From the NCBI RefSeq assembly GCF_018613155.1, contig NZ_JAGGQU010000021.1:62001-126000 (forward strand): a stretch of 64,000 bases of DNA, written 5' to 3'. The notes below the pieces were generated by a model that was given only the letters and a program-made list of their open reading frames with translations, did not search any database and was not told where the DNA came from. The translations under genes and the position numbers were made by a program. Of the stretch, positions 4,116 to 26,998 are shown piece after piece; the first letter of the stretch is position 1; each line of letters starts with the position of its first letter. Source of the stretch: Bacillus sp. ISL-55 (GTDB taxonomy: Bacteria > Bacillota > Bacilli > Bacillales > Cytobacillaceae).

Positions 4116-5225
4116 CTAATGGATTATTTTTTTTACGGTGATTGAGCCGGTTTTGGTATCCGCATGCAGCCTGACAGCTTTTTGGCCTGAATCAGCCGGC
4201 TTGAAGCGAAGATTTTTTTGAACCATGTCGCTCTTCTCTTCAACAACCTGGATGCCGTCGAGTTCAATCGTAAAGCCGCCAAGGTTCGATTTCAACTCGC
4301 CACTCGCTGGCGTCTTCTCTGGCAGGAAGACTTCGATGCTTCCAGTGGTAGCCTTCACTTCCACACTTTCGCAATCATTGTTATTTACAGTGCAAGTCAC
4401 ATTTCCATTGAATGACTGAAGATCGACATGGTCAAAAGAGCCATCAGCCTTTATTGCTCCGTTGATTGTTTCAGCCTCAAGATCCTTGATTGCGCTTCTT
4501 GAGATATTGATTGTTCCATTCGCTGTTTCAGTTTCCAGCTTGCCGCACTCAAGATTTCCAAGCAAAACTTTCCCGTTTGCAGTCTTTGCCCGGCAATCCT
4601 TCACTGTTAAGTTTTCACCTTCAATGGATCCATTAAACAAACGGATTCGAACATTTTCATATTCTTCTTTCGGAATATGGATGACTGCATCAACCTTCAT
4701 CCACTTCTGTTGAACGGAAAACCGCAGCTTCTGATTTTCAATTGTGAAAATGGCGTCCTCTAAGAACTTCCTGCGCGCTTCATCCTGGTTTTCGACACGA
4801 TACACTTTCGCGCTGCACTCGATACGTACATCCTTTTGCTCCCATGGCACGACTTTTACCGAACCATTCGCCATATCAATATCGACCTGGTTCAAATAAG
4901 CATCTCCCTGCTGGAAAATGTGAGAGATATCCACGGACTGGCCGAAGTTAAGATCCAAATCGAAATCCTTTATTTTCTTGAATGCTGAATCGACAAAATC
5001 CAGCACTTTGTCTTTCATAGAGTTAAATTTGTAAGTATTAAAATCTTCCTTTTTGTACTCTTCTTTCTTCGCTTCTTCAAACTTTACATCCGTTGACAGA
5101 TACGTAGAGCTTTCCTGCTGAGGCGTTTTTCCCTGCTCCAGCTGCTCGATTAAAAATAAAGCTTCATCAACCGTCATTTTCCCTTCCTCAACTAGCTTGA
5201 GAATTCGCTTCCGTTCTTCCTTCAT
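4116..5225 (-). CDS. yvlB: DUF4097 family beta-strand protein with N-terminal SHOCT-like segment, YvlB-like
   Basis: A 369-residue protein. The N-terminal 35 residues (KEERKRILKLVEEGKMTVDEAL and on) form a short SHOCT-like helical motif, followed by a charged spacer and a long region of repeated beta-strand units with recurring NG-S/T-I/V patterns (TANGKV, TANGTINIS, TINGAIKADGS, SFNGNVT) typical of DUF4097 'adhesin' beta-helices. ATG at 5225 is chosen because AGGGGG lies just upstream; an in-frame ATG at 5243 overlaps the yvlA stop but has no ribosome binding site. No signal peptide is seen, so a cytoplasmic or membrane-associated location is likely. Function unknown; belongs to the yvl unit. 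Confidence 0.88.
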   Translation of the reverse strand: MKEERKRILKLVEEGKMTVDEALFLIEQLEQGKTPQQESSTYLSTDVKFEEAKKEEYKKEDFNTYKFNSMKDKVLDFVDSAFKKIKDFDLDLNFGQSVDISHIFQQGDAYLNQVDIDMANGSVKVVPWEQKDVRIECSAKVYRVENQDEARRKFLEDAIFTIENQKLRFSVQQKWMKVDAVIHIPKEEYENVRIRLFNGSIEGENLTVKDCRAKTANGKVLLGNLECGKLETETANGTINISRSAIKDLEAETINGAIKADGSFDHVDLQSFNGNVTCTVNNNDCESVEVKATTGSIEVFLPEKTPASGELKSNLGGFTIELDGIQVVEEKSDMVQKNLRFKPADSGQKAVRLHADTKTGSITVKKIIH

Positions 5226-12240: not shown

Positions 12241-12320
12241 TACCGATAAAGGCAAACCTGTTGAAAGGCAGGGACGCAAAGCCACGGGCCTAAAGCAATT
12301 GCTAGGGCAGCCGGGCCGCC
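12241..12320 (+). ncRNA. cyclic-di-GMP-I (GEMM) riboswitch aptamer
   Basis: The conserved core is plain to read: GATAAAGGCAAACCTG (12245-12260), a GAAA tetraloop (12263-12266), GGGACGCAAAGCC (12271-12283) and CGGGCCTAAAG followed by the second arm and its receptor-side GGGCAGCCGGG. These are the hallmark segments of class I c-di-GMP aptamers. It is followed at once by a terminator hairpin and then by the STAS/PP2C operon, so it should couple c-di-GMP level to expression of that operon. Whether ligand turns the operon on or off cannot be decided by eye. Confidence 0.93.
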
Positions 12321-12325
12321 GAAGA

Positions 12326-12354
12326 AGACGGAAATCTATCAATCCGCCTTTTTT
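12326..12354 (+). terminator. expression-platform terminator of the c-di-GMP riboswitch
   Basis: GACGGA and TCCGCC pair (one mismatch) around a loop of about 10 nt and are followed by TTTTTT. The 5' arm is only a few bases after the aptamer, the layout expected for transcription control. Confidence 0.75.
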
Positions 12355-12419
12355 CGAGGGGGATTTTTTTATACCCTTTATAGGTATTATTACCCGGAAC
12401 TCATGAAAGGTGATGAGAA

Positions 12420-12728
12420 ATGTCTTTTAAGATGACTGAAGAGAGTGTCAATGATCAGGTTAATGTCTTCCTTGAAGGAGAATTAGACATTTTCACAATC
12501 GAATCCGTTATCCAAAAGATCGATTCGATTTCAGCTCCTGAATGCAATGTGAATCTGAATGGAGTATCTTTTATTGATTCTTCTGGAATTGGTTTATTGA
12601 TCAGGAAAGTCATGGATTGGAAAGAGAATGGCCGCACTTTAACCATTTCCGATTTTCAGCCTGTTGTCCATGAGGTGATGGAAGAAATGGGAGCATTCAT
12701 AATACTAGAGGAAGTTTATAGCCAATGA
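12420..12728 (+). CDS. STAS domain protein, anti-anti-sigma factor type (SpoIIAA/RsbV-like)
   Basis: A 102-residue single STAS domain. The segment NLNGVSFIDSSGIGLLI carries the DSSG motif whose first Ser is the phosphorylation site in SpoIIAA and RsbV, so it should cycle between a phosphorylated form (made by an RsbW-like kinase) and a free form that binds the kinase. First gene after the c-di-GMP riboswitch; the start ATG has GAAAGGTGATGA upstream. Its stop overlaps the start of the PP2C phosphatase gene, a natural partner. The kinase could be the C-terminal domain of the HD-GYP protein at 14301 or the RsbW-like protein at 20456; this is inference. Confidence 0.92.
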   Translation: MSFKMTEESVNDQVNVFLEGELDIFTIESVIQKIDSISAPECNVNLNGVSFIDSSGIGLLIRKVMDWKENGRTLTISDFQPVVHEVMEEMGAFIILEEVYSQ

Positions 12729-13504
12729 TGATCCATTCCGAAGAAAAAAACACAAATAAATATATACAACAAAACAGACTAAGTGCTGATTTGAAGGAAG
12801 CAGCCAATGTCCAAAGTGTCCTGCTCCAGCACGAGCCCCCTGCTTGTGAATCTCTAGAATGCAAAGGTGTCTCTATTCCAGCCCATTATTTAGGGGGAGA
12901 TTATTATGGTTTTATCTATGAAGAGGAAAAACAGAGATATTGGGTGTTCACGGGTGATGTGATGGGAAAGGGAATTCCTGCTTTCGCTAAAATGGCGATG
13001 CTTAGAACCGCGATCCGGACGCTCGTTCCTCAAAGCTCGAGCCCCTCTGAATTATTGCAGAAAGTGAACATGATTTTATATGAAGATTTAAAACTGCTCA
13101 AGTCCTTCGCGACCTTATTTTGCGGAATGTATGATTTAGCTGAAAACACATTTACCTACGCATCCGCCGGGCATCCAAGTGCGATTCTGAAGAGGGAAAA
13201 ACATCCTAGCGAATTCCTGAAAGCAAATGGAATTGCGATCGGTTTCCTGCCTAACCGTAAATATACAGAAGAGAGAGTGATTCTTGGACCCAATGATTAT
13301 GTCTGTATATACACTGACGGTATCTTGGAGGCAATGGATGATCAGCGAAATCAGTTCGGAAAAGACAGAATAATCAAAATGATAAACCAGCACTCTGACT
13401 ACCCTTCATTAGTAAAAACCATTACTGAGCAAGTACTATCATTCTCGAATTTCGATCAGCGAGACGATGTAACGCTGGTGACGATCCGACGAATGGCACA
13501 TTAA
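12725..13504 (+). CDS. PP2C-like SpoIIE/RsbU-type serine phosphatase
   Basis: A 259-residue protein made of one SpoIIE-type PP2C domain after a short N-terminal helix (SADLKEAANVQSVLLQ). Metal-binding aspartates are visible in GGDYYGF (about 58), TGDVMGKG (about 78), YTDGILEA (about 198) and RDDVTLV (about 247), so the enzyme looks active. RsbU-type enzymes remove phosphate from STAS antagonists; the upstream overlapping STAS gene is the obvious substrate. There is no separate sensory domain, so control is probably through the riboswitch or partner proteins. Start ATG 12725 overlaps the STAS stop (ATGA). Confidence 0.92.
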   Translation: MMIHSEEKNTNKYIQQNRLSADLKEAANVQSVLLQHEPPACESLECKGVSIPAHYLGGDYYGFIYEEEKQRYWVFTGDVMGKGIPAFAKMAMLRTAIRTLVPQSSSPSELLQKVNMILYEDLKLLKSFATLFCGMYDLAENTFTYASAGHPSAILKREKHPSEFLKANGIAIGFLPNRKYTEERVILGPNDYVCIYTDGILEAMDDQRNQFGKDRIIKMINQHSDYPSLVKTITEQVLSFSNFDQRDDVTLVTIRRMAH

Positions 13505-13558
13505 TTTTGTTTCACTGGTTGATGATTGTCAATGAACCTTTGAAAGGAGGTGTTAATA

Positions 13559-13645
13559 ATGAAGGCAAAGGTAAAGTACACTCTTCAGATTGCTGCATTG
13601 ATCGCCCTGGCTCTAGGTCCGGTTGTTGGAAAGCCTTGGTGGTAA
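13559..13645 (+). CDS. 28-residue hydrophobic peptide ending Lys-Pro-Trp-Trp
   Basis: A very short gene not long enough for standard gene callers. ATG at 13559 has an almost ideal ribosome binding site AAAGGAGGTG (13542-13551) 7 nt upstream, which is why I believe it is translated. The peptide has a basic start (KAKVK), a hydrophobic core with ALIALALGPVVG, and the end GKPWW followed by TAA. It lies 54 bp after the PP2C gene and just before a strong terminator, so it is probably the last gene of the riboswitch operon. It looks like a signal-peptide-type pheromone precursor or a small membrane peptide (type I toxin-like); I cannot tell which. I do not recognise the family. Confidence 0.72.
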   Translation: MKAKVKYTLQIAALIALALGPVVGKPWW

Positions 13646-13652
13646 GATCCAG

Positions 13653-13712
13653 ATAAAGACTTGGTGATTTTCCTGACGGCCGGCATGATAATCATCCAAG
13701 TCTTTATTTTCT
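13653..13712 (+). terminator. long hairpin terminator after the peptide gene
   Basis: ATAAAGACTTGGTGATT (13653-13669) pairs with AATCATCCAAGTCTTTAT (13689-13706) with a single bulged base, followed by TTTTCT. It ends the riboswitch-STAS-PP2C-peptide unit or attenuates read-through to the next genes. Confidence 0.85.
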
Positions 13713-13713
13713 A

Positions 13714-13766
13714 GGCTCTTTTCTAAAACTTTGTTGCTATTGAGTACAAAAATGGATTTGAAATTC
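13714..13766 (+). repeat. half copy of the 181-bp palindromic element
   Basis: GGCTCTTTTCTAAAACTTTG, then TTGCTATTGAGTACAAAAATGG. It matches the right-hand 50 bp of the full copies (compare 18119-18170) but has no second arm. It lies immediately upstream of the DUF5317 gene ribosome binding site. Confidence 0.65.
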
Positions 13767-13783
13767 AAAGGAGGTCATTGAAA

Positions 13784-14293
13784 TTGAAATATTTTTTATT
13801 GCTGGCATTTGTCATCACATTTTCTCTTAAAAAAAACCCACTAACATTCTTTAAAAATGTTGAATTTCAATGGCCTCTTCTCATCATTGTCAGCTTTGGT
13901 GCACAAATTGCCCTGGCTTTTTTCACTATAAGGACAGCGGTAAAGCTGGAATTGGTGCTGATCGCTACTTTTTCAGGTATCATCCTGTGGCTATGGAAAA
14001 ATCGTCAAATCCCAGGACTTAAGTTCATACTGGCAGGCTCCACCTTGAATTTACTCGCTTTGCTGTTACATGGCGGCCTGATGCCTGTCTCCGAAAAAGC
14101 GATGACTCTGACAGGACAGGATGTATCCTCCCTCGGGAATGATTCTCGACACCAGCTGATGGACTCCACTTTTACCTGGATTCTCGGCGACTGGATACCC
14201 GTCTTGAAATATGTATTAAGTCCAGGGGATCTTTTAGTAGGCACAGGCATAATCACACTTGTTTATCTTAATTCCACTGTATGGGGGAAATAG
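13784..14293 (+). CDS. DUF5317 family membrane protein
   Basis: A 169-residue protein with five hydrophobic segments (about 2-14, 27-48, 52-68, 76-95, 135-165) and the loop GGLMPVSEKAM that I associate with DUF5317 proteins. Function unknown. TTG at 13784 is preferred because AAAGGAGG (13767-13774) is 9 nt upstream; TTG at 13778 is closer. The next gene, the HD-GYP protein, starts 7 bp after the stop, so the two are co-transcribed. Pairing of a DUF5317 protein with a membrane HD protein suggests a shared membrane complex; that is inference. Confidence 0.8.
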   Translation: MKYFLLLAFVITFSLKKNPLTFFKNVEFQWPLLIIVSFGAQIALAFFTIRTAVKLELVLIATFSGIILWLWKNRQIPGLKFILAGSTLNLLALLLHGGLMPVSEKAMTLTGQDVSSLGNDSRHQLMDSTFTWILGDWIPVLKYVLSPGDLLVGTGIITLVYLNSTVWGK

Positions 14294-14300
14294 GGAGCAT

Positions 14301-16379
14301 ATGAAACTCATCAATTGGTATACTATCAGTCTAGTCATATTAGCTTTTGCTGCCCTCATTTACTCCATATCGGAAATCCAGTGGGTAGATAACAATGTTT
14401 TCATAGTTGCTGTGATTATTGTCATCATCCTTGAAGTTCTTCCCCTTCGCCTTCCAAGTGGTGATCACTACTCAGCAGGAAGCATCGGCTTTTTATTTTT
14501 ATTGCTGTACAGCGGGTTTTCACATTCAATTTTAGCGATTTACCTTGCCGCTTTTGCTTATTATTTAAAAAACATAAGACGAGGGGCTCCCCATCCCATC
14601 CGCTTATTCGTCACCATTGGGATGTATTCCGGTTCTTTATTGATTGCCAGCAGTGCTATCCACTTTATTGAATGGCAACATAACTACATCGAAATAGCCT
14701 TTGCCGCCATCACTTTTGAATTCGCCAACTTTCTTTTCATCGAAGGCATCGAAGCTACTGTTTTTGGCAAAAGAATGTTTAGCCATTTCAAACAAAAATT
14801 TATCGAACTGATCATTCCAATCTTGATCAGTATCTTTGTCCTGACAATGTTCACTGCCCATTCAGGGGAAATCGAACTGATTCATTTAATGATCTACACT
14901 TTGTTCTTCCTGCTGATTGTCATCTTTTTTTCTCATGAGTATATTAAACAGCTTGAGCTGCGAAAGGCCACTTCCAACGCTTTTATACAGGTTATGGAGG
15001 GACGTATCAAATCCGATTTAACTGGTCACGGAAGCAGGGTTGCTGCGATATGCGAGGTCCTGCTTGACGATTTCGCTTATCCCAAACGCAAGCGCCATGA
15101 TCTTATCCAGGCAGCCATCATCCATGATATTGGAAAAGCCATTTTGCCTTCGCATATTTTCAGAAAAAAAGGCGCGCTCACCTTATCAGAAGAACGTGAA
15201 TATAAGAAACATCCCGAAAAGGCCATGGAAATTGTAAAAACGATGTTCCCAAAGGAGTCTTTTTCCAAATGGATCCTGCATCATCATGAACGCTGGGATG
15301 GAGATGGTTTTCCTTCGGGATTGGCAGGTGCAGACATCCCTCTGGGTGCGCGAATTCTAGCCACCGGCAATGAATTGGAACATCTCCTACAACGCCATCA
15401 GGACCCAGAAACCGTCTTGAATTTAATCAATGATAAAAGCGGAACAGTTCTGGACCCTAAGCTAGTGGAGAAAATCACCCTATCGCATATAGAGGAAATG
15501 CTTATAAGCCTGGAAAAGGAGTTAGTGCGCGAGGAATTGACTGAAGTTTCGGAAACATCCGAGGACATCTATCATGAAACAGATACATACACACAAATCG
15601 GGGAAACCTTCTACCTTCTTGTCAAAAATGGAGTCGTGTTCAATAAAAGGGGAAAACCGTCCCATGAATTTGTTCAGGAACTGGCTGAGACAGCTCTTAA
15701 AAGAAAAGGAGCCGTTCTTGAAACATGTGTCCATCATCAAGAACTCTATTATCTTCATGCACTCCCTGTTTCAAGTCAGGATGTCGTTGTGTTCGTCCAT
15801 AATATAACTCCGTATATGGAGTACAGGAAAACACTTGAGATGAGCGTTCTGGAGTCCTATGTTAACGTAATTAACGTCTTCTCTCAAGGAAAGATCAAAT
15901 TGCTTACCTCCATTGAAATTCTCCAAGGACAATTAGGAGATTTAGTTGGTGAGATGTGCATAAGAAGTGCGTCAGATGTTCCGAAAAGCCGCGCATTCAT
16001 GAAGGAAATACTCGAGCAATATCCGGTGACAATCTCGAATATGAAGGCATTAGTAGCTGTTTCAGAAGCAACATCAAATATCGTCAAGCATGCATCAGAT
16101 GGCCGGTTCGCTATTTACCATAGCTCAACGAAACTTCAGCTTCTTCTTTCCGATCGTGGGTCTGGCATCCCTCTGCATGAGATACCGACTGCTATCCTGA
16201 TTGCAGGTTACTCTAGTAAAAGGTCATTGGGACGAGGTTTCAACTTGATAGGAAATTACTCGGATGGAGTGCAAATTCACACAGCTTCAGAGGGGACATG
16301 CATGTTAATAGAGTTCCAACTCCAAAACGATTCAACCAAACAAAATGGCAAGTTGGTCATGGGGATCAAAAATCATTAA
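14301..16379 (+). CDS. membrane HD-GYP-type c-di-GMP phosphodiesterase fused to an RsbW-like HATPase domain
   Basis: A 692-residue protein with three parts. Residues 1-225 contain about seven membrane helices forming a sensor. Residues about 240-400 are an HD domain with HDIGK (H275, D276) and the HD-GYP signature HHERWDGDGFPSGLAGADIPLGARI from 328; the GYP triad reads GFP, so the motif is slightly altered. A linker follows, and residues about 570-690 are an RsbW/SpoIIAB-type ATPase with N-box SEATSNIVKHA (E589, N593) and DRGSGIP (D618), ending GRGFNLIGNYSD. The fusion would tie c-di-GMP breakdown to phosphorylation or sequestration of a STAS partner. ATG 14301 has GGGAG upstream. Followed by a terminator. 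Confidence 0.88.
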   Translation: MKLINWYTISLVILAFAALIYSISEIQWVDNNVFIVAVIIVIILEVLPLRLPSGDHYSAGSIGFLFLLLYSGFSHSILAIYLAAFAYYLKNIRRGAPHPIRLFVTIGMYSGSLLIASSAIHFIEWQHNYIEIAFAAITFEFANFLFIEGIEATVFGKRMFSHFKQKFIELIIPILISIFVLTMFTAHSGEIELIHLMIYTLFFLLIVIFFSHEYIKQLELRKATSNAFIQVMEGRIKSDLTGHGSRVAAICEVLLDDFAYPKRKRHDLIQAAIIHDIGKAILPSHIFRKKGALTLSEEREYKKHPEKAMEIVKTMFPKESFSKWILHHHERWDGDGFPSGLAGADIPLGARILATGNELEHLLQRHQDPETVLNLINDKSGTVLDPKLVEKITLSHIEEMLISLEKELVREELTEVSETSEDIYHETDTYTQIGETFYLLVKNGVVFNKRGKPSHEFVQELAETALKRKGAVLETCVHHQELYYLHALPVSSQDVVVFVHNITPYMEYRKTLEMSVLESYVNVINVFSQGKIKLLTSIEILQGQLGDLVGEMCIRSASDVPKSRAFMKEILEQYPVTISNMKALVAVSEATSNIVKHASDGRFAIYHSSTKLQLLLSDRGSGIPLHEIPTAILIAGYSSKRSLGRGFNLIGNYSDGVQIHTASEGTCMLIEFQLQNDSTKQNGKLVMGIKNH

Positions 16380-16868: not shown

Positions 16869-17603
16869 TTATTTTTTCATCTCAATTTGTTCTTGGACCT
16901 CGTTAATTTTCAATTTGGATATGTATGCATTTTTTTTCGTGTTAGCGAAATAGGCTAAATAAGTCTCACCAGAAGGCTCAATGCGTGTAATCCTGGAGAG
17001 ATTAACTAAATAGGAGCGATGTGTCTTATAGAAATAGTCTGGCAGCAGCCTTTCGAGATCTGCTAACGATTCTGTCGTTTCATGGCGATCGTCTTTCGTA
17101 TGCAGAATCGTCTTCCTTCCCTCTTTCTCAATGTAAAGAATTTCATCAATATGTATATATAAAAAACTATTATTCGACTTAATCGACAGTTTATTATAAT
17201 GTTTTGATTTCTGGGAGAGTGTCCGTTCCAATTGGATCGCTTTCTTTGCTTTATCTAATGCGATGAACAGTCTAGTCCGATCAATCGGCTTCACTAAATA
17301 ATCAACTGCAGACATATTGAAAGCTTCAACAGCAAACTCCTCGTAACCAGTTGTAAAAATGACTTGAAGAGATGGCATGGTTTCTTTGCACAATTTCACA
17401 GCCTCAAGCCCTGTCAGGCCTGGCATGTTTATATCAACGAGTACCAAATCCGGTTTTAACTCTATTGCCTGCTGATGTAGTTCTTCTCCGTTAGTGGCTT
17501 CTCCGATGATCTCAAAATCTGAAAATACTTTAATCATATGCTCCAGTAACAATCTCGATGAGGAATCATCATCAGCAATGATCATTTTTATTTTTTCCAT
17601 CAT
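16869..17603 (-). CDS. LytTR-type response regulator
   Basis: A 244-residue regulator: receiver domain (about 5-120) with acidic pocket ADDDSSS, phosphoacceptor in LVDINMPG and the invariant Lys in VKPID; then a LytTR DNA-binding domain (about 140-240) with YIEKEGRK, KTHRSYLVNL and YISKLKIN. LytTR proteins bind direct repeats upstream of target promoters. No sensor kinase gene is adjacent. Two start codons (17603, 17600) follow AGAGGGATA. It lies downstream of a STAS gene, with a hairpin and a 9-bp direct repeat between them. The protein is a close relative of the one at 26244. Confidence 0.92.
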   Translation of the reverse strand: MMEKIKMIIADDDSSSRLLLEHMIKVFSDFEIIGEATNGEELHQQAIELKPDLVLVDINMPGLTGLEAVKLCKETMPSLQVIFTTGYEEFAVEAFNMSAVDYLVKPIDRTRLFIALDKAKKAIQLERTLSQKSKHYNKLSIKSNNSFLYIHIDEILYIEKEGRKTILHTKDDRHETTESLADLERLLPDYFYKTHRSYLVNLSRITRIEPSGETYLAYFANTKKNAYISKLKINEVQEQIEMKK

Positions 17604-17777: not shown

Positions 17778-18095
17778 CTACACTAAAACCTCTTCGCCCA
17801 AAATCTCTTTCAATTGAATCATCTCGAAGACCTCTTGCACCAGTGGTTGTACTTCCTTGATAAAAATTTGTCGTTCCTCACCGCTGCTTCTCAAAGTTTC
17901 AACAAGATTGATCAAAACACCGATACCAGTCGAATCCACAAAGGGAACGGAACCTAAGTTCAGGGTAACAGTCTGATAAGGGATCAGTCGAGGCAGAATT
18001 TCCTGTTCTACCATCTCCGTAACATCTATATCCAAATCCCCGAACATCTTAACACTTACTTCATTTTCATTCGCTTCAATATTATATGAAAACAT
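17778..18095 (-). CDS. STAS domain anti-anti-sigma factor type protein
   Basis: A 105-residue single STAS domain with the phosphorylation motif in NLGSVPFVDSTGIGVLINL (DST instead of DSSG, still with an acceptor Ser). It is the second such protein in the region. ATG 18095 has AAGGGGAAC upstream. Upstream on the same strand are FapA, an RsbW-like kinase and an EAL protein, so the kinase at 20456 is its likely partner. A full copy of the 181-bp element fills the gap between this gene and fapA. Role inferred: switch protein that frees or blocks a partner of the kinase. Confidence 0.9.
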   Translation of the reverse strand: MFSYNIEANENEVSVKMFGDLDIDVTEMVEQEILPRLIPYQTVTLNLGSVPFVDSTGIGVLINLVETLRSSGEERQIFIKEVQPLVQEVFEMIQLKEILGEEVLV

Positions 18096-18118: not shown

Positions 18119-18299
18119 GGCTCTTTTCTCAAACTTCGTTGCTATAAACTACAAAATAGGATTGGATGAACTATGTTTATTCATAAAATTAAAACTTATT
18201 ATGAGAAAAGAGCTTGCACACTCAATACCGAACAATAAAATGGCTTTTTATCACGTTAAAATCGGCTTTAGGATTTTAACTACAATCTTTACGAAAACA
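18119..18299 (+). repeat. 181-bp palindromic dispersed element, full copy D
   Basis: GGCTCTTTTCTCAAACTTCG at the left, TTATGAGAAAAGAGCTT internally (18199-18215), the stem GTTAAAATCGGC / ATTTTAAC and CTTTACGAAAACA at the right. It is the reverse complement counterpart of copy B over the whole 181 bp, and occupies nearly all of the gap between the STAS gene and the fapA stop. Confidence 0.8.
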
Positions 18300-18308: not shown

Positions 18309-20414
18309 TTAGAAACACAATTTTCCTTTTTCATCTAAAAAGGCTGTTATGTTCTTCTGCAGTTCCTGGAAGGTGTATTTTACTTTTCCAATCTGAATGA
18401 CTGTACCTTCATTGGCTAGATCGATCAATATTTTCTTATTGGCCGGTACCATTATCTTCGTTACCGCTCCCCCATCCGAACCCGCTTCCTTTATGGAAAC
18501 TCCTTTGCGGGCATAGACCTCGCCACCGCGTAGAACCCCTGATACCACTAACATTCCACCTGCATGTATTTTTGAATTATAACACCCTTGCCCATGGATG
18601 GACACGTTCCCTCCTGAATAGATGGTACTGTTGATGGCATACATCATTGAAATCTGGCAATCATCATCATTTAGATTTTTATGCTTTTCAATCAGCAGTT
18701 CCATCCGCTCTGCCAGCTCCTCCAGCCGGTGCATCGAGTGGTACTCATTCGTAATGCTCGATAAAAGGCTAAGTTTAAGCTGTTCAGCAATCGTCATCCA
18801 TTCTAGTCCAAGGACATGGCTGCCTTGCGTGCAGACTTCAATTAATTGCTTTGTGGGCGGAATGATTGTTTTGAATTTTTGCTCCAACAAAAGCTTGATG
18901 ACTGGATATAGCCCTTTTTTCTGAAAATCAGTCATTTTGAAAGCCGGCAAAAGCAGCAGGTGATGAATAGAATTCAGCAGTTTCTTGAATTCTTCAAGAA
19001 TGATAGCCAGCAGATTGATCATTTCAGATTCAAAAATATTGTGTTTACCGGCAGACAGTGTGCTGCCAATCGAATTCTTCTGGAGAATAATGGAGTTTTT
19101 CGAAGAAACAATAGCCTTATTTGCATTGTGTAGGATATTGATATGGCCATCAGCTTCGACGACCATTCCCTCTTCGATGTTTCCCAGTATGTCAACGTCT
19201 CCTTTGAAACGAATATTGCCCGAGGTAATATCCACATCAGAGTAGTGCACAAGTTTTGGAATGATTGAGAACTTTGCCAGTAGCCCCCGTTGCTCTACCA
19301 TAGGCCTCCCTGTTTCGGTAGCCACAACCTTATTTCCTTCCTCGATCAGGGCCGTTCCTTTACCAGCCTGGACAATCAATGGATAAGTAGGTTCTGGGGG
19401 AATGGGTGTATTGGATACACTTACTCCAGGGATTCCAGGAATCGGGGGATGGATGACAGCGATCACTTGTCCTTTGTTGACTGTTGGAATGATCTGTACC
19501 TCCCTGAAATCCATGGTCCCGTCCGAACGTTGCTGCGGACCTTTCATCCGGCTTGTATTCACCAAAAGCTCATACACCCCATGTTTTCCCTCTTTGGGTT
19601 TAGTGCCAGAGGCAATAATGAAGTCCCCCTGTTCTTCCGCATGGATCGCCTTCATGATTTCAGCATGGTTGAAACCATGTACGACTTTTAATCTCTCAAG
19701 CTCGCCTAAAATGACCTTATATTCCAACTCATTCTGTATATCAATGATTTCCTCCGACTCAATGACGAGATGAGTGTCAGGGTCTTGATCCACAACTTTG
19801 TAATACTTTTTCATCCCCGGCTCAACATGCAAGGTGACATTGAGATAGTGCGAATCACAAGTAATATGCCATTTTGTTTCCTTTGTTTCTTCTTCTGTTT
19901 TTATCTCAAACCTGTCAGAGCCCGTCACAAGGGTCGTTTCCGTGACAGGCTCCTGATTTTTATAAATTTTCACATGCTTCCCCGGTGTAATCGTCGGATA
20001 CTGGAAAGCCGAGGGTTTTCCATAGAGAATGCCGTCCCTGACCCACACCTTGCCTGCTGTTTGTTCCTCTTCGGTTTTATCTAAATCATCATCATCCCTG
20101 TTTTTCCGTTCATTCATTTCGATTTCTTCAACATGCAGTTCGTTTATTGCCTTTTCCATTTCATGAATGAGGGATAGCTTCCGGCCCGTCTGATTTTCAT
20201 CGGGGGCAGCATCTTTCTGATTCTGGAGGGGCTCGTTACTTTCTATCTTTGTGATCTTAACAATGGCTGGCTGAGTGCCGAGCTTAAGGAATCCTTTTTT
20301 TTCATGCTGAACGATTTCTATAGATACTTGATTTCGGTCTGTCTTTAGAATCTCTAATCCAATATCAACCGCTTCAATGACATCTTTACCTCTAGAAAGA
20401 ATGGATTGATTCAT
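18309..20414 (-). CDS. FapA family protein (DUF342) with N-terminal Jag-like domain
   Basis: A 701-residue protein. Residues 1-55 (ILSRGKDVIEAVDIGLEILK ... KGFLKLGTQPAIVKI) resemble the Jag_N domain; after an acidic linker the FapA/DUF342 beta-helix region extends from about 115 to 690, with repeated DGxINI/GNVSIHGQG-type turns (GDVDILGNIEEG, GGNVSIHGQG, GGEVYARKGV). FapA proteins are cytoplasmic and linked to polar organisation of flagella or pili in other bacteria; in Bacilli the role is unknown. AGAGGG precedes the ATG. It lies between the RsbW-like kinase gene (41 bp upstream) and the STAS gene, apparently co-transcribed. Confidence 0.85.
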   Translation of the reverse strand: MNQSILSRGKDVIEAVDIGLEILKTDRNQVSIEIVQHEKKGFLKLGTQPAIVKITKIESNEPLQNQKDAAPDENQTGRKLSLIHEMEKAINELHVEEIEMNERKNRDDDDLDKTEEEQTAGKVWVRDGILYGKPSAFQYPTITPGKHVKIYKNQEPVTETTLVTGSDRFEIKTEEETKETKWHITCDSHYLNVTLHVEPGMKKYYKVVDQDPDTHLVIESEEIIDIQNELEYKVILGELERLKVVHGFNHAEIMKAIHAEEQGDFIIASGTKPKEGKHGVYELLVNTSRMKGPQQRSDGTMDFREVQIIPTVNKGQVIAVIHPPIPGIPGVSVSNTPIPPEPTYPLIVQAGKGTALIEEGNKVVATETGRPMVEQRGLLAKFSIIPKLVHYSDVDITSGNIRFKGDVDILGNIEEGMVVEADGHINILHNANKAIVSSKNSIILQKNSIGSTLSAGKHNIFESEMINLLAIILEEFKKLLNSIHHLLLLPAFKMTDFQKKGLYPVIKLLLEQKFKTIIPPTKQLIEVCTQGSHVLGLEWMTIAEQLKLSLLSSITNEYHSMHRLEELAERMELLIEKHKNLNDDDCQISMMYAINSTIYSGGNVSIHGQGCYNSKIHAGGMLVVSGVLRGGEVYARKGVSIKEAGSDGGAVTKIMVPANKKILIDLANEGTVIQIGKVKYTFQELQKNITAFLDEKGKLCF

Positions 20415-20455: not shown

Positions 20456-21097
20456 TTATTTTGCCAATGGGAACGGGTCACCATAAAAAATTCTGTCACT
20501 TGCATCCTTCCGGAACTTGGCTGCGATGATCGAACCATGGTCTGTATTAGCTAATAAAAGCTGATCCGTCAGTTTTAGGAGGATGCTAAACCCGAACCCA
20601 AGAGAATCTTTTGTCGAGTAACCAGCAGCCAGTGTTTTATCCTTCAAATCTCTCAGCTCGAAGCCTGGTCCTTTGTCCTGAATCAAGCAAATATATTCTT
20701 CGTCTGTTTCAATGACCATGATACTGCCTCGCTCAGCATGCTTAATGACATTCGTGGTCAGTTCTGAAACAGCAAGCAGCATGTTCATGTAACAGCCATC
20801 TTCTACATTTTTCGTCTCTAAAACCTTACTCAGCATTTCTCGCGTCTTGGGAATATCTTTTGTCGTTCTCAATTTTTTAAAGAAGAGAAGCCTTCCCACA
20901 CTATGCTCTTTGATTTCCTGTTCTGTTACAAGGAGCATCTTCTTTTCAGTTGCCGCATATATTTCCTCACGAAAATAACGAAATTCTGCCAGGTGGCTAA
21001 TTTTAATATTTTGTTCCTTTTTACCAATAGTCAGTTTAGATTCACTGAATGTCGCTTCCTTTATGTTCGTTTTAGGTATTGTATATTTTCCGGTCAT
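20456..21097 (-). CDS. RsbW/SpoIIAB-like ATP-binding protein (anti-sigma-type kinase)
   Basis: A 213-residue protein. An N-terminal region of about 85 residues has no recognised domain; the C-terminal HATPase_c_2 domain shows N-box AVSELTTNVIKHAERG, G1 box QDKGPGFE and GYSTKDSLGFGFSILLKL. Close matches to the last domain of the HD-GYP protein (SEATSNIVKHA, DRGSGIP, GYSSKRSLGRGFNLIG) suggest common origin. Such kinases phosphorylate STAS proteins on Ser and bind sigma factors or other partners. No sigma factor gene is seen nearby. AGGTGAAAG lies before the ATG. It follows the EAL gene by 87 bp. Confidence 0.87.
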   Translation of the reverse strand: MTGKYTIPKTNIKEATFSESKLTIGKKEQNIKISHLAEFRYFREEIYAATEKKMLLVTEQEIKEHSVGRLLFFKKLRTTKDIPKTREMLSKVLETKNVEDGCYMNMLLAVSELTTNVIKHAERGSIMVIETDEEYICLIQDKGPGFELRDLKDKTLAAGYSTKDSLGFGFSILLKLTDQLLLANTDHGSIIAAKFRKDASDRIFYGDPFPLAK

Positions 21098-21184: not shown

Positions 21185-21925
21185 TTAAAAATTCAATGCT
21201 TTCATGGACAAACCGGATGGCTCATCCATCCGTTGTGGCCTGCCAAGCAGATAGCCCTGTACGACAGGAACACGAATCATCTTGGCATACGCCAAATCAA
21301 CATCAGTTTCAATGCCTTCTAAAATCAGGCCCATTTTCTGCTTGGCATATTCAATAAGTAATGTGATCATTTCTTGTTTTTCTTTGGAAGTCGATAGGTT
21401 TTCTGAGAAGTAACGATCAAGTTTGATATAATCTGGAGAAAATTCAACTATTTTCTGTATTGTAGCCGCACCTTTGCCTATATCATCAAGTGCGACTTTA
21501 AATCCCATGTCCCTTAAAGTGGCCATTCTTTCTTTAAATTCGGGCAAATTCCATATATGCTCTTCTTCTATCGTCTCATTCAATTCAAAAACGATATTTT
21601 CTGGCCGAATTGAGTATTGATCTATCAAATTCATAACAAAAGTTAAAAACCGTTCATCCATCAAAGTAGAGGGGAAAAAATTAATAAATAGGAGTCCTTC
21701 TTCAAGTATATGCAGCGGGAAATGTCTGATGGCACTCTCGATTGCGATTGTATCCAGTTCAAATAATCGGCCTTTCATTCTTGCTTCAATAAAAACATTT
21801 TCTATTTCCACATTTGCGCGATTTGAGATTCTCATCAAGGCTTCGTATCCAAATACTTTCCATCCATCCAGATTCCACATTGGCTGATAGATATGCCTAA
21901 TGTCCGCTTTATTTAACATCCTCAT
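21185..21925 (-). CDS. EAL domain protein, probable c-di-GMP phosphodiesterase
   Basis: A 246-residue stand-alone EAL domain. Key motifs are present: YEALMR, INFFPST (Asn metal ligand), FELNE, LDDIGKG (paired Asp), KLDR (Lys) and LEGIET (Glu). The DDFG loop reads DDIG, but all expected catalytic residues remain, so hydrolysis of c-di-GMP to pGpG is plausible. It heads a minus-strand unit: EAL, RsbW-like kinase, FapA, STAS and perhaps the LytTR gene. AAGGAGGGG precedes the ATG at 21925; a second ATG lies at 21919. GACATATCAGG, shared with the promoter region of the MHYT kinase gene, lies about 94 bp upstream. Confidence 0.9.
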   Translation of the reverse strand: MRMLNKADIRHIYQPMWNLDGWKVFGYEALMRISNRANVEIENVFIEARMKGRLFELDTIAIESAIRHFPLHILEEGLLFINFFPSTLMDERFLTFVMNLIDQYSIRPENIVFELNETIEEEHIWNLPEFKERMATLRDMGFKVALDDIGKGAATIQKIVEFSPDYIKLDRYFSENLSTSKEKQEMITLLIEYAKQKMGLILEGIETDVDLAYAKMIRVPVVQGYLLGRPQRMDEPSGLSMKALNF

Positions 21926-22355
21926 GATTTCCCCTCCTTCAATTCGAATATATTAATAGTGATAATCAGGTATACAATAAATGTAACTTTAGTCCTATAT
22001 ATTGTCTAATCACCAAAGGACATATCAGGTGTATATCAAGACATCTCACCCTGATAAACTGACAGAATAAGACACAAATGGTACATTTAACGACATTTTT
22101 CTGAATAGCGGGCCTTTTGGTGAGCGTCATTTTTTTTAGTATTGGTGCCCTTCTATACTTCTGTATCATCCATCAGCTACACCTGCAGCAATACGTACAT
22201 TTTAATTGGAGAAATAAAAAACCGCTGTACTGCCAATTTGCAGTACAGCGGTTTTTAAAGAATAGTTTGAACAGAGATTCATATATAAAGTTTTAGAATC
22301 CACATTTAATATTCTGAATCTAAGTCACGTAGGTCCTGTTTTTTCAGTCAGCCAT
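21926..22355. other. intergenic region with a strong two-way terminator
   Basis: 430 bp between the EAL gene and the MHYT kinase gene, both minus strand. It holds the upstream region of the EAL gene (including GACATATCAGG, 22019-22029) and the terminator at 22216-22256. The open frame at 21966-22169 has no family likeness. Confidence 0.6.
22216..22256. terminator. symmetrical terminator after the MHYT hybrid kinase gene
   Basis: AAAAACCGCTGTACTGC and GCAGTACAGCGGTTTTT pair perfectly over 17 bp around a 7-nt loop. U-runs on both strands make it bidirectional. Confidence 0.93.
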
Positions 22356-25300
22356 TCACAGATAGTCAGAAAGGCATTTTAATAGGCTGGAGATATTGAT
22401 TGGTTTCGTAATATATTCATTGAAACCTGCCTTTAAAGCAGCATCCACATCTGCGGGCATTGCATTCGCACTGATTGCGATGACCGGCAGTTCTTTTACA
22501 AGTCCTTTCGATTGCAGCTGCTCCAGGACTTCAAAACCGTTTAGATCCGGAAGCTGTATATCCAACAAGATGACATCTGGTTTGTCCTCTTCCAAAAGCT
22601 GGATCCCTTCCCTCCCACTCCGTGCTGTACTGAGCTTAATGTTAGGTATTTGCTTCATGACATGTTCCATCAATTCAATATTGGATGGATTATCTTCAAT
22701 ATACACGATCTTCTTCTTGTCTCCATTTTGTATTAGAAGTGGGGGCTCTTCAACAATTCTCCCCTGTTTGAAAGCAGATTGGCGGACAACCGGCAGACTG
22801 ATCCAAAAATCACTGCCCTTCCCAACTTCACTGACGACACCGACATTGCCCCCCATCAGCATCGTCAGTTTCTTTACAAGTGATAAACCTATCCCAGCTC
22901 CCTCGGCAGTCGTGTTGCCTACTCTGAAAAATGGTTCAAAAATATCAAATAGATGATCTTCAGCGATCCCAATCCCCGTGTCCAACACATGGATTTCAAG
23001 GAATCCATCTTTGTTAAGGCACTTTATCGTGATGGTCCCCGCTTCACGGTTATACTTCAACGCGTTATCCAATAGGTTCAGTATGATCTGCCTAAAACGG
23101 ATTTCATCAATTTTGACATAAGCATCCTGGCAGCCAGATAAATGAGTTTCAATTGAAATCCTCCTTTTTTGCGCTGCTGGGCTGACAAGACTTATGCACT
23201 CCTCAATCAAAGAATTGACATTGATTAATTTAAACGCCACTTTCAATTTGCCGGTCTCAATTCTGGAAAGATCAAGAATTTCATTAATTAAATCTAGAAG
23301 ATGCCTGCCGCCCTTAAGGATTTCATCGACATATAGACTTTGCTGTCCATTAAGCTTTTCATCAATTTCCAGCAGCTGTGAAAAACCAAGGATCCCATTC
23401 AGCGGGGTACGCAATTCATGGCTCATATTGGACAGGAACGTCGACTTGGCATCATTGGCCTTGATCGCTTCTTCCTTCGCAAAAATAGATTCCTGGACAA
23501 TTTGCTTTCGTTCGGTATAATCTTCAAACGTCCAGAGATGCCCCCTCAATTCATTATCCATATAAAATGGTACATACTTTCGCCTTAGTGTCCGGCCATC
23601 AGCAGTGGCGATCTCCTCTTCATGCGGACGCTGATTCTGTATGATATCAGTAATATCTTGCTGATTGCGTTCAGGATCAGACAACAAAGATAAGTGGAAT
23701 GGAGTCGAAGCCTCCCCTGCTATTTCACTTAGAGTTTTCTCAATTTTAAACAGTTTCCTGAAGAAATCATTCGCCAGGACGATATTCCGGTCAATATTCT
23801 CGACCAAGACCCCGACCGGAAGACTATTCAGAATCGTTTTCCTCAGCGCATCAGATTCAGTGAGCTTCATTTCTTGTTCTTTTTGCAGTGTGATATCCGA
23901 AAAAGTAAGCAAAACTTTAGCCAAGTCCCCTGGCTCAAATGGTTCAAGCAATTTGGTGGAAGTGTTAATCCAGGTAACCCTTCCATCTTTCTTTTTGATT
24001 CCAAGTGTCTTTTGCTTAAAAGACTTACCAGTCCTGAATGTTTGGACAATAGGATATTGTTCCATTGTAAGAATCTCCCCTGCTTCATCGATAAACACAA
24101 TTTCGTTATCGGCCAAAGACTGGGCATGGAACGTTTCTTTATCCATTTCAAAAATGTCATACACATTATCGTTTAACACTGTCATCTGGTCATTTTCATC
24201 ATATAACAGAATTCCTTCAGTCATTACTCCTAGCAGATTCCTATACCATTGTTCATTTCGCTTCTGGCTGGCTTCAATTCGCTTCCGCTCGGTGATGTCG
24301 GCAGCAGATCCAATGACCTCAATTACTTGTCCATTTTTAAAAACAGGAGTTAAACTTGCAAAGTAGTCGACCCCATTGATATTACCTTCATAATGAGCGA
24401 CTTTGCCCTCCCAAGCTTCCTGGTAGATTTTCGATTTCCTTGCGGCCATTTCATAGGGGAACAAATCATATAATGATTTGCCTATCAACATCCCTGGTTC
24501 AACCCCCAGCCTTCTCAACAACTCCCCATCACCTAATGTATGGATAAAATGGCCGTTATAATTGATGTACTTGAAGATCATCCCCTGCTGCAATCGGACC
24601 GTATCGAGCAATTCCTTCTGTACCTTCTTAATCCGCTCTCTATATTGAATCAATTCAGATATATCTTTACCAGCGGCAAAAAAACCCTCGATTTTCTGGT
24701 CAATAATGACGGGCACAAAAGTGATCGCCATCGGGAGTTGTCTACCATCCATGGTTTTTATCTTAAGTGCATGCTCTAGCGGACCTTCTGTAGTCAAGTT
24801 TTCGATAATATTCCGTAGTTTCTCCTGCTCTACAAACAAATCATAAAGGGACATGCCGACTATTTCATTGCTCTCAACCCTCAATTCTTCTTTCCCCTTA
24901 GGATTCACACTGGTGATTTTAAGTCCAATATCAAAAGCAATGACCGTATAAGGACTGTTTTCTATCAAGGATCTGTACTGCAACTCAGAATATCTCAGCT
25001 TCTTCTCAAAGTTGTTTTTAGCCTTAATGGCAATGGCTAATATGACAATGAAGAAAAACAGTGTAAACAAGCCAAGCCATAATGCGAGTGTATCAGCCGT
25101 AATCGTGAAAGCGTCATTTGGAATATAAATCTCATTCGGTTTCAGACTGCTCGATTCTTGATGGATTTCCATGGCATACATGCCGGTATAATGCATTCCG
25201 GAAATAGCGATAGCGAGGAGAAGAGTCCCGAGAATGAGCGATTGCTTGGATTGTAATTTTTTTATAGAATTTGCAAACGTGAAGATGAATGCTCCATAGG

Positions 25301-25760
25301 AAAAAATAATCGCAATCAGAATGGATGCCAGTACATACTCCAACTGATAGTCGACATCATGGCCCATTCTCATCGCTCCCATGGCAGCGTAATGGGTGAT
25401 CGCAACCCCTAATGCCAGACTGGTTGAGCTATGAAAAAGAAGCCATTTTTCCCCTTCAGAGCGAAGGACAAGGGCAAAGGACAAGAGACTCATGAAAATA
25501 GCAATCAATAAAGACAACATAATAATCCATATGTTGTAGCTAACAGGGGTGTATGGGTAGAAACTGAGCATTGCGATAAAATGCATGGTCCATATACCTG
25601 CACCTGATATGATTGCTCCTTTTACTAGTGTAGAAGAGCCATAATCACTTTTATTACGGTAGGTTTTATTAAGCTGGGTCAATCCAAAGTAAGAGGATAT
25701 CACTGAAACAATGATCGAGAGCACGACGATTTCTGGCAGATAGGATGGGGTTACCGTCAT
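22356..25760 (-). CDS. hybrid histidine kinase with N-terminal MHYT sensor, several PAS domains and C-terminal receiver
   Basis: About 1134 residues. The first 210 form a seven-helix MHYT domain with MHF, THYAAM and MHYTGM motifs proposed to bind metal and sense gas or redox state. Four PAS-type repeats follow (about 255-750; for example ENSPYTVIAFD, GDGELLRRLGV, LLYDENDQ, NSLPVGVLVEN). HisKA has SHELRTPLNGILGFSQL with phospho-acceptor H781; HATPase shows NLLDNALKYN and DTGIGI; the terminal receiver has D1067 in LLDIQLPD. Start ATG at 25760 follows TTAGGAGAAC; the frame to 25778 is less likely. A Spo0E-like gene lies on the opposite strand just upstream, so input to sporulation is possible. 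Confidence 0.92.
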   Translation of the reverse strand: MTVTPSYLPEIVVLSIIVSVISSYFGLTQLNKTYRNKSDYGSSTLVKGAIISGAGIWTMHFIAMLSFYPYTPVSYNIWIIMLSLLIAIFMSLLSFALVLRSEGEKWLLFHSSTSLALGVAITHYAAMGAMRMGHDVDYQLEYVLASILIAIIFSYGAFIFTFANSIKKLQSKQSLILGTLLLAIAISGMHYTGMYAMEIHQESSSLKPNEIYIPNDAFTITADTLALWLGLFTLFFFIVILAIAIKAKNNFEKKLRYSELQYRSLIENSPYTVIAFDIGLKITSVNPKGKEELRVESNEIVGMSLYDLFVEQEKLRNIIENLTTEGPLEHALKIKTMDGRQLPMAITFVPVIIDQKIEGFFAAGKDISELIQYRERIKKVQKELLDTVRLQQGMIFKYINYNGHFIHTLGDGELLRRLGVEPGMLIGKSLYDLFPYEMAARKSKIYQEAWEGKVAHYEGNINGVDYFASLTPVFKNGQVIEVIGSAADITERKRIEASQKRNEQWYRNLLGVMTEGILLYDENDQMTVLNDNVYDIFEMDKETFHAQSLADNEIVFIDEAGEILTMEQYPIVQTFRTGKSFKQKTLGIKKKDGRVTWINTSTKLLEPFEPGDLAKVLLTFSDITLQKEQEMKLTESDALRKTILNSLPVGVLVENIDRNIVLANDFFRKLFKIEKTLSEIAGEASTPFHLSLLSDPERNQQDITDIIQNQRPHEEEIATADGRTLRRKYVPFYMDNELRGHLWTFEDYTERKQIVQESIFAKEEAIKANDAKSTFLSNMSHELRTPLNGILGFSQLLEIDEKLNGQQSLYVDEILKGGRHLLDLINEILDLSRIETGKLKVAFKLINVNSLIEECISLVSPAAQKRRISIETHLSGCQDAYVKIDEIRFRQIILNLLDNALKYNREAGTITIKCLNKDGFLEIHVLDTGIGIAEDHLFDIFEPFFRVGNTTAEGAGIGLSLVKKLTMLMGGNVGVVSEVGKGSDFWISLPVVRQSAFKQGRIVEEPPLLIQNGDKKKIVYIEDNPSNIELMEHVMKQIPNIKLSTARSGREGIQLLEEDKPDVILLDIQLPDLNGFEVLEQLQSKGLVKELPVIAISANAMPADVDAALKAGFNEYITKPINISSLLKCLSDYL

Positions 25761-25964
25761 AAAAAGTTCTCCTAACACAGTCTTTCGATATTGGCACTTT
25801 TGACAGCATCATTTACGCATGTGACACCGATATTATGACATATCAGGCAATGAATCCGTCATTTGAATGCTAGCGGCTTAACGAAAGGAATATTTTTGAT
25901 ATTATGTAACTTAATAGATAGACCCTGGGGCATACCACTTACAACTAAAAGGAGTGACTTAGCT

Positions 25965-26144
25965 ATGAGCCATTTGACGACGCTGATTGAATTGAATCGC
26001 AAAAAGATGATAGAGCTTTCTAAGCTGCATGGGATGAGTTCCAGTGAAGTAATAAAATGCAGCCAGGAGCTGGATGTTCTGATCCATGTGATGATGGATG
26101 AAAAGCATTCAGCTGTTGAGTGTACTGACATACAAAAACGATGA
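25965..26144 (+). CDS. Spo0E-like aspartyl-phosphate phosphatase
   Basis: A 59-residue protein with the Spo0E signature SQELDVLI after two helices (LIELNRKKMIELSKLHGMSS). Members are 50-90 residues, cytoplasmic, and dephosphorylate Spo0A-P or related response regulators. The ATG at 25965 has AAAAGGAGTG 7-8 nt upstream; the longer frame from 25863 is not supported. It is monocistronic with a terminator after it and stands between two kinase-linked transcription units. Whether its target is Spo0A, the Spo0A-like protein at 33658 (which cannot be phosphorylated at the usual place) or another regulator is open. Confidence 0.9.
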   Translation: MSHLTTLIELNRKKMIELSKLHGMSSSEVIKCSQELDVLIHVMMDEKHSAVECTDIQKR

Positions 26145-26156
26145 ATGTAAAACGAT

Positions 26157-26209
26157 GCTCTCCTTAGGGCATCTGGTTCTTCCAGTTACCCGTTAGGAGA
26201 GCCTCTTTT
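26157..26209 (+). terminator. terminator after the Spo0E-like gene
   Basis: GCTCTCCT (26157-26164) pairs with AGGAGAGC (26195-26202), with an inner CTGG/CCAG hairpin, followed by CTCTTTT. Confidence 0.8.
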
Positions 26210-26243
26210 AACTCTTTTAAGTGTGATTCTTAAACGAACCCTG

Positions 26244-26984
26244 CTAAAGTGAAGCGATTTTTTCTCTCACATCATTAATTTTCAATTTTGAAATGCTGGC
26301 TTGCTGATCATATTGTTGAAAATAAGCGATATACGTTTCATGGTGCGGTGTGATATGTGTAACTTTTTTCAAGTTAATGATAAAAGAGCGATGTGCAGAA
26401 TAAAAGATATCATCCGTCAACTTTTCATATAGTTTGCCAATATTTTCATAGGTTTCATATATTTCATCCGCTGTATGGATAAAACACTTCTTTCCTGATT
26501 TCTCAATGAAATATATATCCTCTAACGGGATGTATCTTGTGCATTGAGGATCTTTTATTACAAGATTCTTGATTGACCTTTCCTTAACAACGTTTTCGAT
26601 GCTCCCTTGTTCATAACGAATCACATTCTCTGCTTTTTCCAGCGCTTTGAGGAGCCGGTCCTTTTCAATTGGCTTGACAATATAATCAATGGCTGCCATC
26701 TGGAAGGCGGTAATCGCATGATTATCATATCCAGTGATAAAGATGAATTTCAGGTTAGGCTGGAAAGATAAGCAGTCCTTTACGGCATGAATCCCGTCCT
26801 TTTTCGGCATATTGATATCTGACAGTACAAGATCGGGTTTTTGAAGCATCACGGCTTCAATCAGTTCTTCCCCATTCGAACATTCTCCAACAATTTCAAA
26901 AGAACTCATTCCACTGATAAAAAAACGCAATATTTCAATGGAGTCTTCATGATCATCTACCAACACGACACGGATGGGCTCCAT
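26244..26984 (-). CDS. LytTR-type response regulator paired with a hybrid kinase
   Basis: A 246-residue regulator with receiver domain (VDDHED acidic pocket, LSDINMP phosphoacceptor, VKPIEK) and LytTR output domain (FIEKSGKKC, SAHRSFIINLKKV, SISKLKIND). It lies 14 bp downstream of the PAS-GAF hybrid kinase gene in the same direction, so the two form a two-component unit, probably with phosphotransfer through the kinase's own receiver. Strong similarity to the regulator at 16869 (ending YISKLKINEVQEQI versus SISKLKINDVREKI) indicates a duplication and possibly shared target sites. Confidence 0.93.
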   Translation of the reverse strand: MEPIRVVLVDDHEDSIEILRFFISGMSSFEIVGECSNGEELIEAVMLQKPDLVLSDINMPKKDGIHAVKDCLSFQPNLKFIFITGYDNHAITAFQMAAIDYIVKPIEKDRLLKALEKAENVIRYEQGSIENVVKERSIKNLVIKDPQCTRYIPLEDIYFIEKSGKKCFIHTADEIYETYENIGKLYEKLTDDIFYSAHRSFIINLKKVTHITPHHETYIAYFQQYDQQASISKLKINDVREKIASL

Positions 26985-26998
26985 TCTTTACCTTCTTT

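Follow-up and report, generated by a model that had tools for sequence, protein, structure and literature searches.

The locus raises the question of why an RNA sensor for cyclic di-GMP (c-di-GMP), the genes of a partner switch, a tiny peptide gene and an enzyme of the type that degrades c-di-GMP lie together in one operon. The operon is found in a 64,000-nucleotide stretch of Bacillus sp. ISL-55 (contig NZ_JAGGQU010000021.1, positions 62,001 to 126,000), hereafter the window. The source genome is a draft of 4.5 Mb, and the fused protein of the nearest named relative found, Bacillus sp. ISL-37, was 96% identical. As judged from the sequence, the riboswitch, STAS, PP2C, peptide, DUF5317 and HD-GYP–ATPase fusion are a conserved gene set, which suggests a little-known signalling circuit. 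At the genome level, the description of the operon as a partner switch that is under c-di-GMP control and physically linked to an HD-GYP protein was well supported. The fuller reading, in which a membrane HD-GYP receptor linked to the peptide forms the basis of a c-di-GMP-responsive partner-switch operon, was favoured with some reserve.

Composition and conservation of the operon

All of the parts listed in a first-pass annotation of the window were recovered on the plus strand, in the order aptamer, terminator, STAS, PP2C, peptide, terminator, DUF5317 and HD-GYP–ATPase. The aptamer (12242-12324) was assigned to class I of the c-di-GMP riboswitches by Rfam (c-di-GMP-I-GGC, RF03167, clan of c-di-GMP-I), with 74.5 bits against a gathering cut-off of 59 (E = 8.4e-16), and was followed by an intrinsic terminator hairpin with T7 (12341-12370), in agreement with the earlier assignment. 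The first gene (12420-12728) encoded a STAS anti-anti-sigma-like protein of 102 residues, in which the D-S-[ST]-G phospho-acceptor pattern took the form DSSGIG. Its frame shared 4 bp with that of a SpoIIE/RsbU-type PP2C phosphatase of 259 residues (12725-13504), which contained all four of the metal-motif patterns searched. The last gene (14301-16379, start ATG 14301) encoded a fusion protein of 692 residues with HD_5 (E = 7.8e-30) and HATPase_c_2 (E = 6.9e-9) matches. The protein comprised a MASE9-like membrane domain (residues about 1-236), an HD-GYP domain (about 237-400), an alpha/beta PAS-like region read from the predicted secondary structure (about 425-502) and a SpoIIAB/RsbW-like ATPase (546-677). 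The ATPase had the N and G boxes of GHKL kinases of the SpoIIAB/RsbW type, and its fold matched SpoIIAB and RsbW better than histidine kinases, as the RsbW-like C-terminus proposed earlier had implied.

Conservation was evaluated via DUF5317 (PF17248), which matched in 52 of 193 family genomes and in 118 of 398 phylum genomes (115 above the cut-off). The locus sample was hand-chosen and non-random, and consisted of the window, 12 window-like loci and 60 others, i.e., 73 loci of 9-14 kb each. A scan of named genomes for the fused protein gave 17 loci, of which seven repeated sampled genomes, five were excluded (L172, L176, L177, L178 and L179) and five complete fused loci were added, namely Filobacillus milosensis (L168), Anoxybacillus calidus (L170), Saccharibacillus deserti (L171), Desulfallas sp. 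(L173) and a Paenibacillus metagenome-assembled genome (L175). Filobacillus belongs to the Bacillaceae, Saccharibacillus to the Paenibacillaceae and Desulfallas to the Clostridia. The hand-picked set of fused loci with DUF5317 numbered 18 (13 of the 73 and the five from named genomes), and L067, whose fused gene was broken by a frameshift, was counted unmended among them. Not counted among the 18 were L172, in which the fused gene was broken and neither DUF5317 nor a peptide was detected; L176/L177 and L193, where contig ends truncated the fused gene, with DUF5317 and a Pro-Trp peptide in L176 and L193; L190-L192, which lacked DUF5317; and L178 and L179, whose matches were short.

STAS and PP2C genes were located within the fetched stretch in 18/18 fused loci, compared with 0/60 DUF5317 loci without the fusion (Fisher p = 4.7e-18, which is only a guide because related sequences are not independent). 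FapA was found in 14/18 and 0/60, respectively. An aptamer was situated upstream on the same strand in 17/18 fused loci and in 3/52 non-fused pairs (L061, L062 and L079; Fisher p = 2.5e-12). The aptamer class was widespread in the family (188/193 genomes at E<=0.001, 179 above the cut-off); hence, its position is what is special. The Rfam model passed its own cut-off in the window and the 12 other fused loci on which it was run, except L067. The counts of 17/18 and 3/52 came from a covariance model built from 11 aptamers, including that of the window (nine fused loci, L061 and L062), so that 11 of these matches were also training sequences; this model scored the window aptamer at 95.6 bits. 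Among the 33 STAS open reading frames (ORFs) of the 18 loci, 30 followed the strict phospho-acceptor pattern and three a looser one. Of the 19 PP2C ORFs, 17 showed all four patterns, as did the window protein; the PP2C proteins of L171 and L175 were response-regulator/SpoIIE proteins, and three of the four patterns were absent.

The fused HD-GYP clade occurred in Bacillaceae, Paenibacillaceae and Clostridia, and the order of the shared genes differed among distant taxa. The fused protein was uncommon, with a profile match at E<=1e-60 in 10/398 phylum genomes. The HD-GYP tree was built on the HD domain alone, which in larger proteins lies beyond the first 440 residues, and in this tree the fused proteins formed a single clade (18/70 tips, support 0.998). 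The fusion therefore looks ancient and appears to have arisen once. Confinement of the cluster to close strains, which would have counted against the first-pass annotation, was thus not seen, and the co-occurrence of STAS and PP2C with the fusion supported the partner-switch reading. The earlier proposal, that c-di-GMP controls a partner switch whose kinase is attached to an HD-GYP enzyme, was upheld at the level of this co-occurrence. In the three fused loci without DUF5317, STAS and FapA were present in 3/3, PP2C in 2/3 and the riboswitch in 1/3, and no peptide passed the filter; L172 kept the riboswitch, STAS, PP2C and FapA, and neither DUF5317 nor the peptide was found in the stretch examined. 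Since these loci keep switch genes without DUF5317 and the peptide, the two halves, peptide with DUF5317 and kinase with STAS, are separable in terms of gene content. In one clostridial fused locus (L092), an HD-GYP protein with a C-terminal Spo0E-like domain was encoded right after the riboswitch (4313-5077).

The peptide, DUF5317 and HD-GYP module

The peptide gene of the window (13559-13645) encoded the 28 residues MKAKVKYTLQIAALIALALGPVVGKPWW and was preceded by a strong Shine-Dalgarno sequence, AAAGGAGGTG (ribosome-binding site (RBS) at 13543-13552). A terminator-like hairpin (13655-13711) with a free energy (dG) of -19.6, a value without shuffle control, separated this gene from that of DUF5317, a membrane protein of 169 residues that was predicted to be helical (13784-14293; PF17248, E = 4.6e-28). 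The strong terminator annotated at this place was borne out, and a small correction applied to the gene that follows it, as the DUF5317 start is most likely TTG 13784 rather than 13778 because of the spacing to the RBS.

DUF5317 was encoded on the same strand and no more than 1.5 kb from an HD-GYP protein with the common N-terminal membrane domain in 63/73 loci; in two further loci, the HD-GYP protein was split in two frames (L076) or formed a single protein with DUF5317 (L124). A strict scan (22-37 residues, RBS with at least five matching bases, hydrophobic core) detected a tiny ORF within the module for 47/63 pairs, as well as in L076 and L124. The same scan gave 34 matches in 1.54 million strand-bases elsewhere in the loci, so that 0.016 matches per locus were expected versus 0.685 observed. 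A relaxed search, in which peptides were picked by eye without a matched control, added 14 more of the 63 (three of them listed from a non-ATG start with an in-frame ATG just after), and the last two loci had a peptide before a tandem HD-GYP pair. A peptide was therefore present in 63/63 adjacent DUF5317/HD-GYP pairs, with 47 supported by the controlled scan and the other 16 by the relaxed search and inspection by eye. Where DUF5317 had no such partner (eight loci), strict scanning gave no peptide and nothing was accepted from the relaxed lists; two of these (L131 and L132) had an HD-GYP protein of a different kind within about 2 kb. The peptide had originally been treated as one part among others. 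Its presence was confirmed, and its role in the gene set proved different, namely that of a constant companion of the DUF5317/HD-GYP pair. In L076, three tandem and slightly differing copies of the peptide gene followed DUF5317.

The end of the peptide varied with the class of locus. Pro-Trp was found near the end in 18/18 fused loci versus 0/52 non-fused loci, and elsewhere the endings were AGGA-N-F-K-L-like (most non-Bacilli) or ALTSG-F-[KR]-L-like (most non-fused Bacilli). Purifying selection on the frame was observed for 11 Bacilli peptides, with a pooled ratio of nonsynonymous to synonymous differences per site (pN/pS) of 0.43; between the window peptide and that of L066, pS was 0.76 and pN 0.20. 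Translation of the window peptide is very likely on these comparisons, because a homologue adjoins DUF5317 in all homologous fused DUF5317 loci and selection on the frame is purifying. For none of 11 peptides (the window and ten others) did a Pfam or NCBIfam match exceed the family cut-off. The EntS transporter family gave the lowest E value (0.0016) and was rejected, as its score was 17.5 bits against a cut-off of 324. A terminator (dG <= -12) followed the peptide gene in 10/14 Bacilli fused loci.

The structure model of DUF5317 had a mean predicted local distance difference test (pLDDT) value of 87.5. Its invariant residues (13/13 rows), including N89, G98, M100-V102, H123, D136, P139, S146 and D149, clustered about the segment that links the final two membrane helices. 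This segment would lie on the outer side of the membrane, because Lys and Arg were mostly in the other loops (positive-inside rule). Of 14 control genomes, PF17248 also matched in those of Thermotoga maritima, an organism known for a density-dependent peptide, and Thermus composti. The N-terminus of the window fusion protein had no direct Pfam match to MASE9 (PF20972) at E<=10. The non-fused relatives L086 and L124 did match this family, and a profile comparison connected the window N-terminal group with the MASE9-matching group (probability 96.9, E = 1.6e-10). Many non-fused Bacilli loci (L073 and, judged by length, L065, L074, L075 and L077-L085) had a larger protein as the partner of DUF5317, and that of L073 held GGDEF and HD-GYP domains together.

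Predicted regulation and competing explanations

A terminator candidate was present in 18/21 leaders examined. The 3' strand of P1 was able to pair with the 5' arm of the terminator, as an antiterminator would, and this pairing predicts that the riboswitch is OFF at high c-di-GMP, which is the probable sign. Such a sign would make the loop positive. The feedback circuit suggested by the first-pass annotation thus kept its basis, a riboswitch upstream of the switch genes, and acquired a predicted sign. In the account given for C. difficile, class I c-di-GMP riboswitches were under negative control by c-di-GMP in 11/12 cases, i.e., all but one (PMC3649979); the aptamer class is the same, and here it precedes a partner-switch/HD-GYP operon.

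In the proposed mechanism, transcription would end at the riboswitch when c-di-GMP is high, whereas low c-di-GMP would allow expression of the operon, including its enzyme of the type that degrades c-di-GMP, and the cells would be locked at low c-di-GMP. The peptide, which is probably produced in excess in this operon given the terminator behind its gene, would insert into or cross the membrane and, together with DUF5317, act on the fusion protein at its MASE9-like, S-component-like domain. This domain would set the state of both the HD-GYP enzyme and the fused RsbW-like kinase. The kinase would phosphorylate STAS on the Ser of DSSGIG, and PP2C would take the phosphate off. STAS would then either report the state of the receptor to a downstream partner or feed back on the fused enzyme.

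Several results weigh against this reading. The terminator after the peptide gene was found in 0/4 clostridial fused loci and 0/12 non-fused loci examined; hence, peptide excess is not general. A fold search with the DUF5317 model gave no solved relative above noise. L191 had no PP2C within 17 kb and no riboswitch, and L190 had no riboswitch. The number of antiterminator pairs was tried as proof of the switch and discarded, as 0/17 leaders were better than shuffles (all leaders with a terminator candidate except L061). The duplex energy, tested in 16 leaders with L061 and the near-copy L069 excluded, reached p<0.05 in 6/16 (mean z -1.4); that of the window leader was reached by 3% of shuffles. 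Finally, the D305-equivalent of the HD-GYP domain (PmGH numbering) was Asn in 12/17 fused proteins, including the window protein (Asn 357, so that the full PmGH metal ligand set was not present), and Asp in 52/52 non-fused proteins. The phosphodiesterase activity may therefore be weak.

The last point bears on an alternative in which the HD-GYP domain chiefly senses c-di-GMP and hydrolyses little of it; c-di-GMP binding would control the fused kinase, and STAS, PP2C and FapA would form the output arm. In addition to the Asn substitution, which occurred in 0/52 non-fused proteins, the GYP motif read GFP in 15/17 fused proteins. In the window, the HD and HHExxDGxGYPxxxxxxxI motifs appeared as HDIGK and HHERWDGDGFPSGLAGADI, with GFP in place of GYP, and the E185-equivalent was read as Asp 239 by its offset from H189. 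However, the equivalents of H189, H221, D222, H250, H276 and H277 were all retained. Moreover, according to the PmGH results given in PMC4159591, D305A lowered hydrolysis without abolishing it, D305A and E185A retained some activity, and changes in the GYP motif were mild. A mainly sensory role is regarded as unlikely. An ordinary anti-sigma switch of the RsbUVW type, in which the ATPase holds a sigma factor and HD-GYP is only the sensory input, would suit an ATPase fold nearest to SpoIIAB and RsbW and the intact STAS and PP2C motifs. No sigma factor was found among 17 Pfam-scanned window proteins between 11.6 and 37.6 kb, a scan that did not cover every ORF there, and this explanation is considered quite improbable.

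MgtU and KdpF are single-helix subunits, and the peptide could likewise be a constant subunit, stabilising a membrane complex of DUF5317 and the HD-GYP protein, rather than a signal. Its about 16-22 uncharged residues and basic N-end can be read as one helix, it was always encoded beside two membrane proteins, and 2/10 peptides matched MgtU weakly, below the cut-off (E = 0.027). The excess of peptide suggested by the terminator in the Bacilli fused loci, the three tandem copies in L076 and the variation of the ending with receptor class all speak against this role, which is possible although doubtful. The co-occurrence might also be a matter of chance in an island where signalling genes are dense, since the window is rich in such genes up to 37.6 kb and the riboswitch class is common in the family. 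The recurrence of the same set in distant taxa with a different gene order, together with the contrast of 18/18 and 0/60 for STAS and PP2C, makes this explanation very improbable. The peptide-linked receptor operon remained the preferred reading.

Genomic surroundings, significance and related systems

The functional neighbourhood extended past 16379, with minus-strand genes up to 21925. These encoded a LytTR response regulator (16869-17603; LytTR genes were also present at several related loci), a second STAS protein with the motif DSTGIG (17778-18095), a FapA/DUF342 protein with a Jag_N domain (18309-20414), a second HATPase_c_2 protein of 213 residues (20456-21097) and a stand-alone EAL-domain protein (21185-21925). 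The region 21185-37630 was a dense signalling island with EAL, MHYT-PAS-kinase, LytTR, GAF-kinase, PAS-GGDEF-EAL and SpoIIE-type phosphatase proteins, together with another hybrid kinase and a response regulator that carries a Spo0A_C domain. A dispersed repeat had two copies in the window, one between the peptide terminator and DUF5317 (13714-13740) and the other at 18119-18145. It had 57 genome-wide matches (<=2 mismatches) versus 0 for a reversed-pattern control and, by eye, resembled one end of a small inverted-repeat element. A T-box leader was located at 59477-59720 (117.9 bits).

The peptide module is the more novel part of the finding. DUF5317, so far a family without an assigned function, and tiny peptides without a match to a curated family gain a testable role beside c-di-GMP enzymes in many Firmicutes, and the operon unites three control layers that are usually studied separately, i.e., c-di-GMP sensing by RNA, partner switching between proteins and a type of c-di-GMP turnover enzyme. 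If the peptide is a signal, the module would provide a direct peptide-to-c-di-GMP route in Gram-positive bacteria. A wider proposal is put forward tentatively from these gene associations: a dedicated peptide of 24-36 residues, with DUF5317 as its handling protein and an S-component-like membrane domain as its sensor, would directly control c-di-GMP turnover enzymes throughout the Firmicutes in cell–cell or self-sensing signalling, and in one ancient branch its receptor would also drive a partner-switch kinase under a c-di-GMP riboswitch. In open-licence PubMed Central (PMC) papers, where absence is weak evidence, no mention of DUF5317 or TM0504, nothing related to MASE9 and no combination of HD-GYP, STAS, PP2C, riboswitch and c-di-GMP was found; the aptamer name c-di-GMP-I-GGC did occur there. 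Judged by title, the same source gave nothing related on HD-GYP with peptide pheromones or peptide quorum sensing, or on Thermotoga peptide quorum sensing with exopolysaccharide and c-di-GMP, and only Mycobacterium work on partner switching with c-di-GMP, STAS, cyclase and RsbW.

Short peptide pheromones, such as SHP and ComS, occur in Firmicutes. These are likewise encoded by a tiny, signal-peptide-like ORF beside the presumed partner and have aromatic residues near the end. Unlike for SHP and ComS, no Rgg/RRNPP regulator adjoined the peptide gene in the window, and the partner would be the MASE9-like HD-GYP protein with DUF5317. The RsbUVW and SpoIIAA-AB-E systems have in common with the operon a STAS protein with a phospho-Ser motif, a PP2C and a GHKL kinase of the same fold; here, by contrast, no sigma factor was among the scanned window proteins and the kinase forms the C-terminal part of an HD-GYP membrane protein. 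The Sia partner-switch/c-di-GMP system (SiaC and SiaD) is already known, although the open-licence papers gave no match for it. A SiaABCD-like arrangement, in which a diguanylate cyclase is the STAS target, was not found, as the fused enzyme is an HD-GYP protein; no GGDEF domain was among ten items scanned between 11.6 and 21.1 kb, and a GGDEF-EAL protein was encoded further away (29494-32058). In the HptB/HsbA-HsbD system of P. aeruginosa (PMC5085249), an anti-anti-sigma factor likewise contacts a c-di-GMP enzyme and steers motility and biofilm formation; that enzyme is a cyclase rather than an HD-GYP protein, and the abstract names no fusion, riboswitch or peptide. Finally, a PP2C, an RsbW-like kinase and a STAS-like protein act on a c-di-GMP enzyme in one known system, and this trio is common to both. 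In that system, the enzyme is a separate diguanylate cyclase, whereas in the present operon the kinase is fused to HD-GYP and accompanied by a riboswitch, DUF5317 and the peptide.

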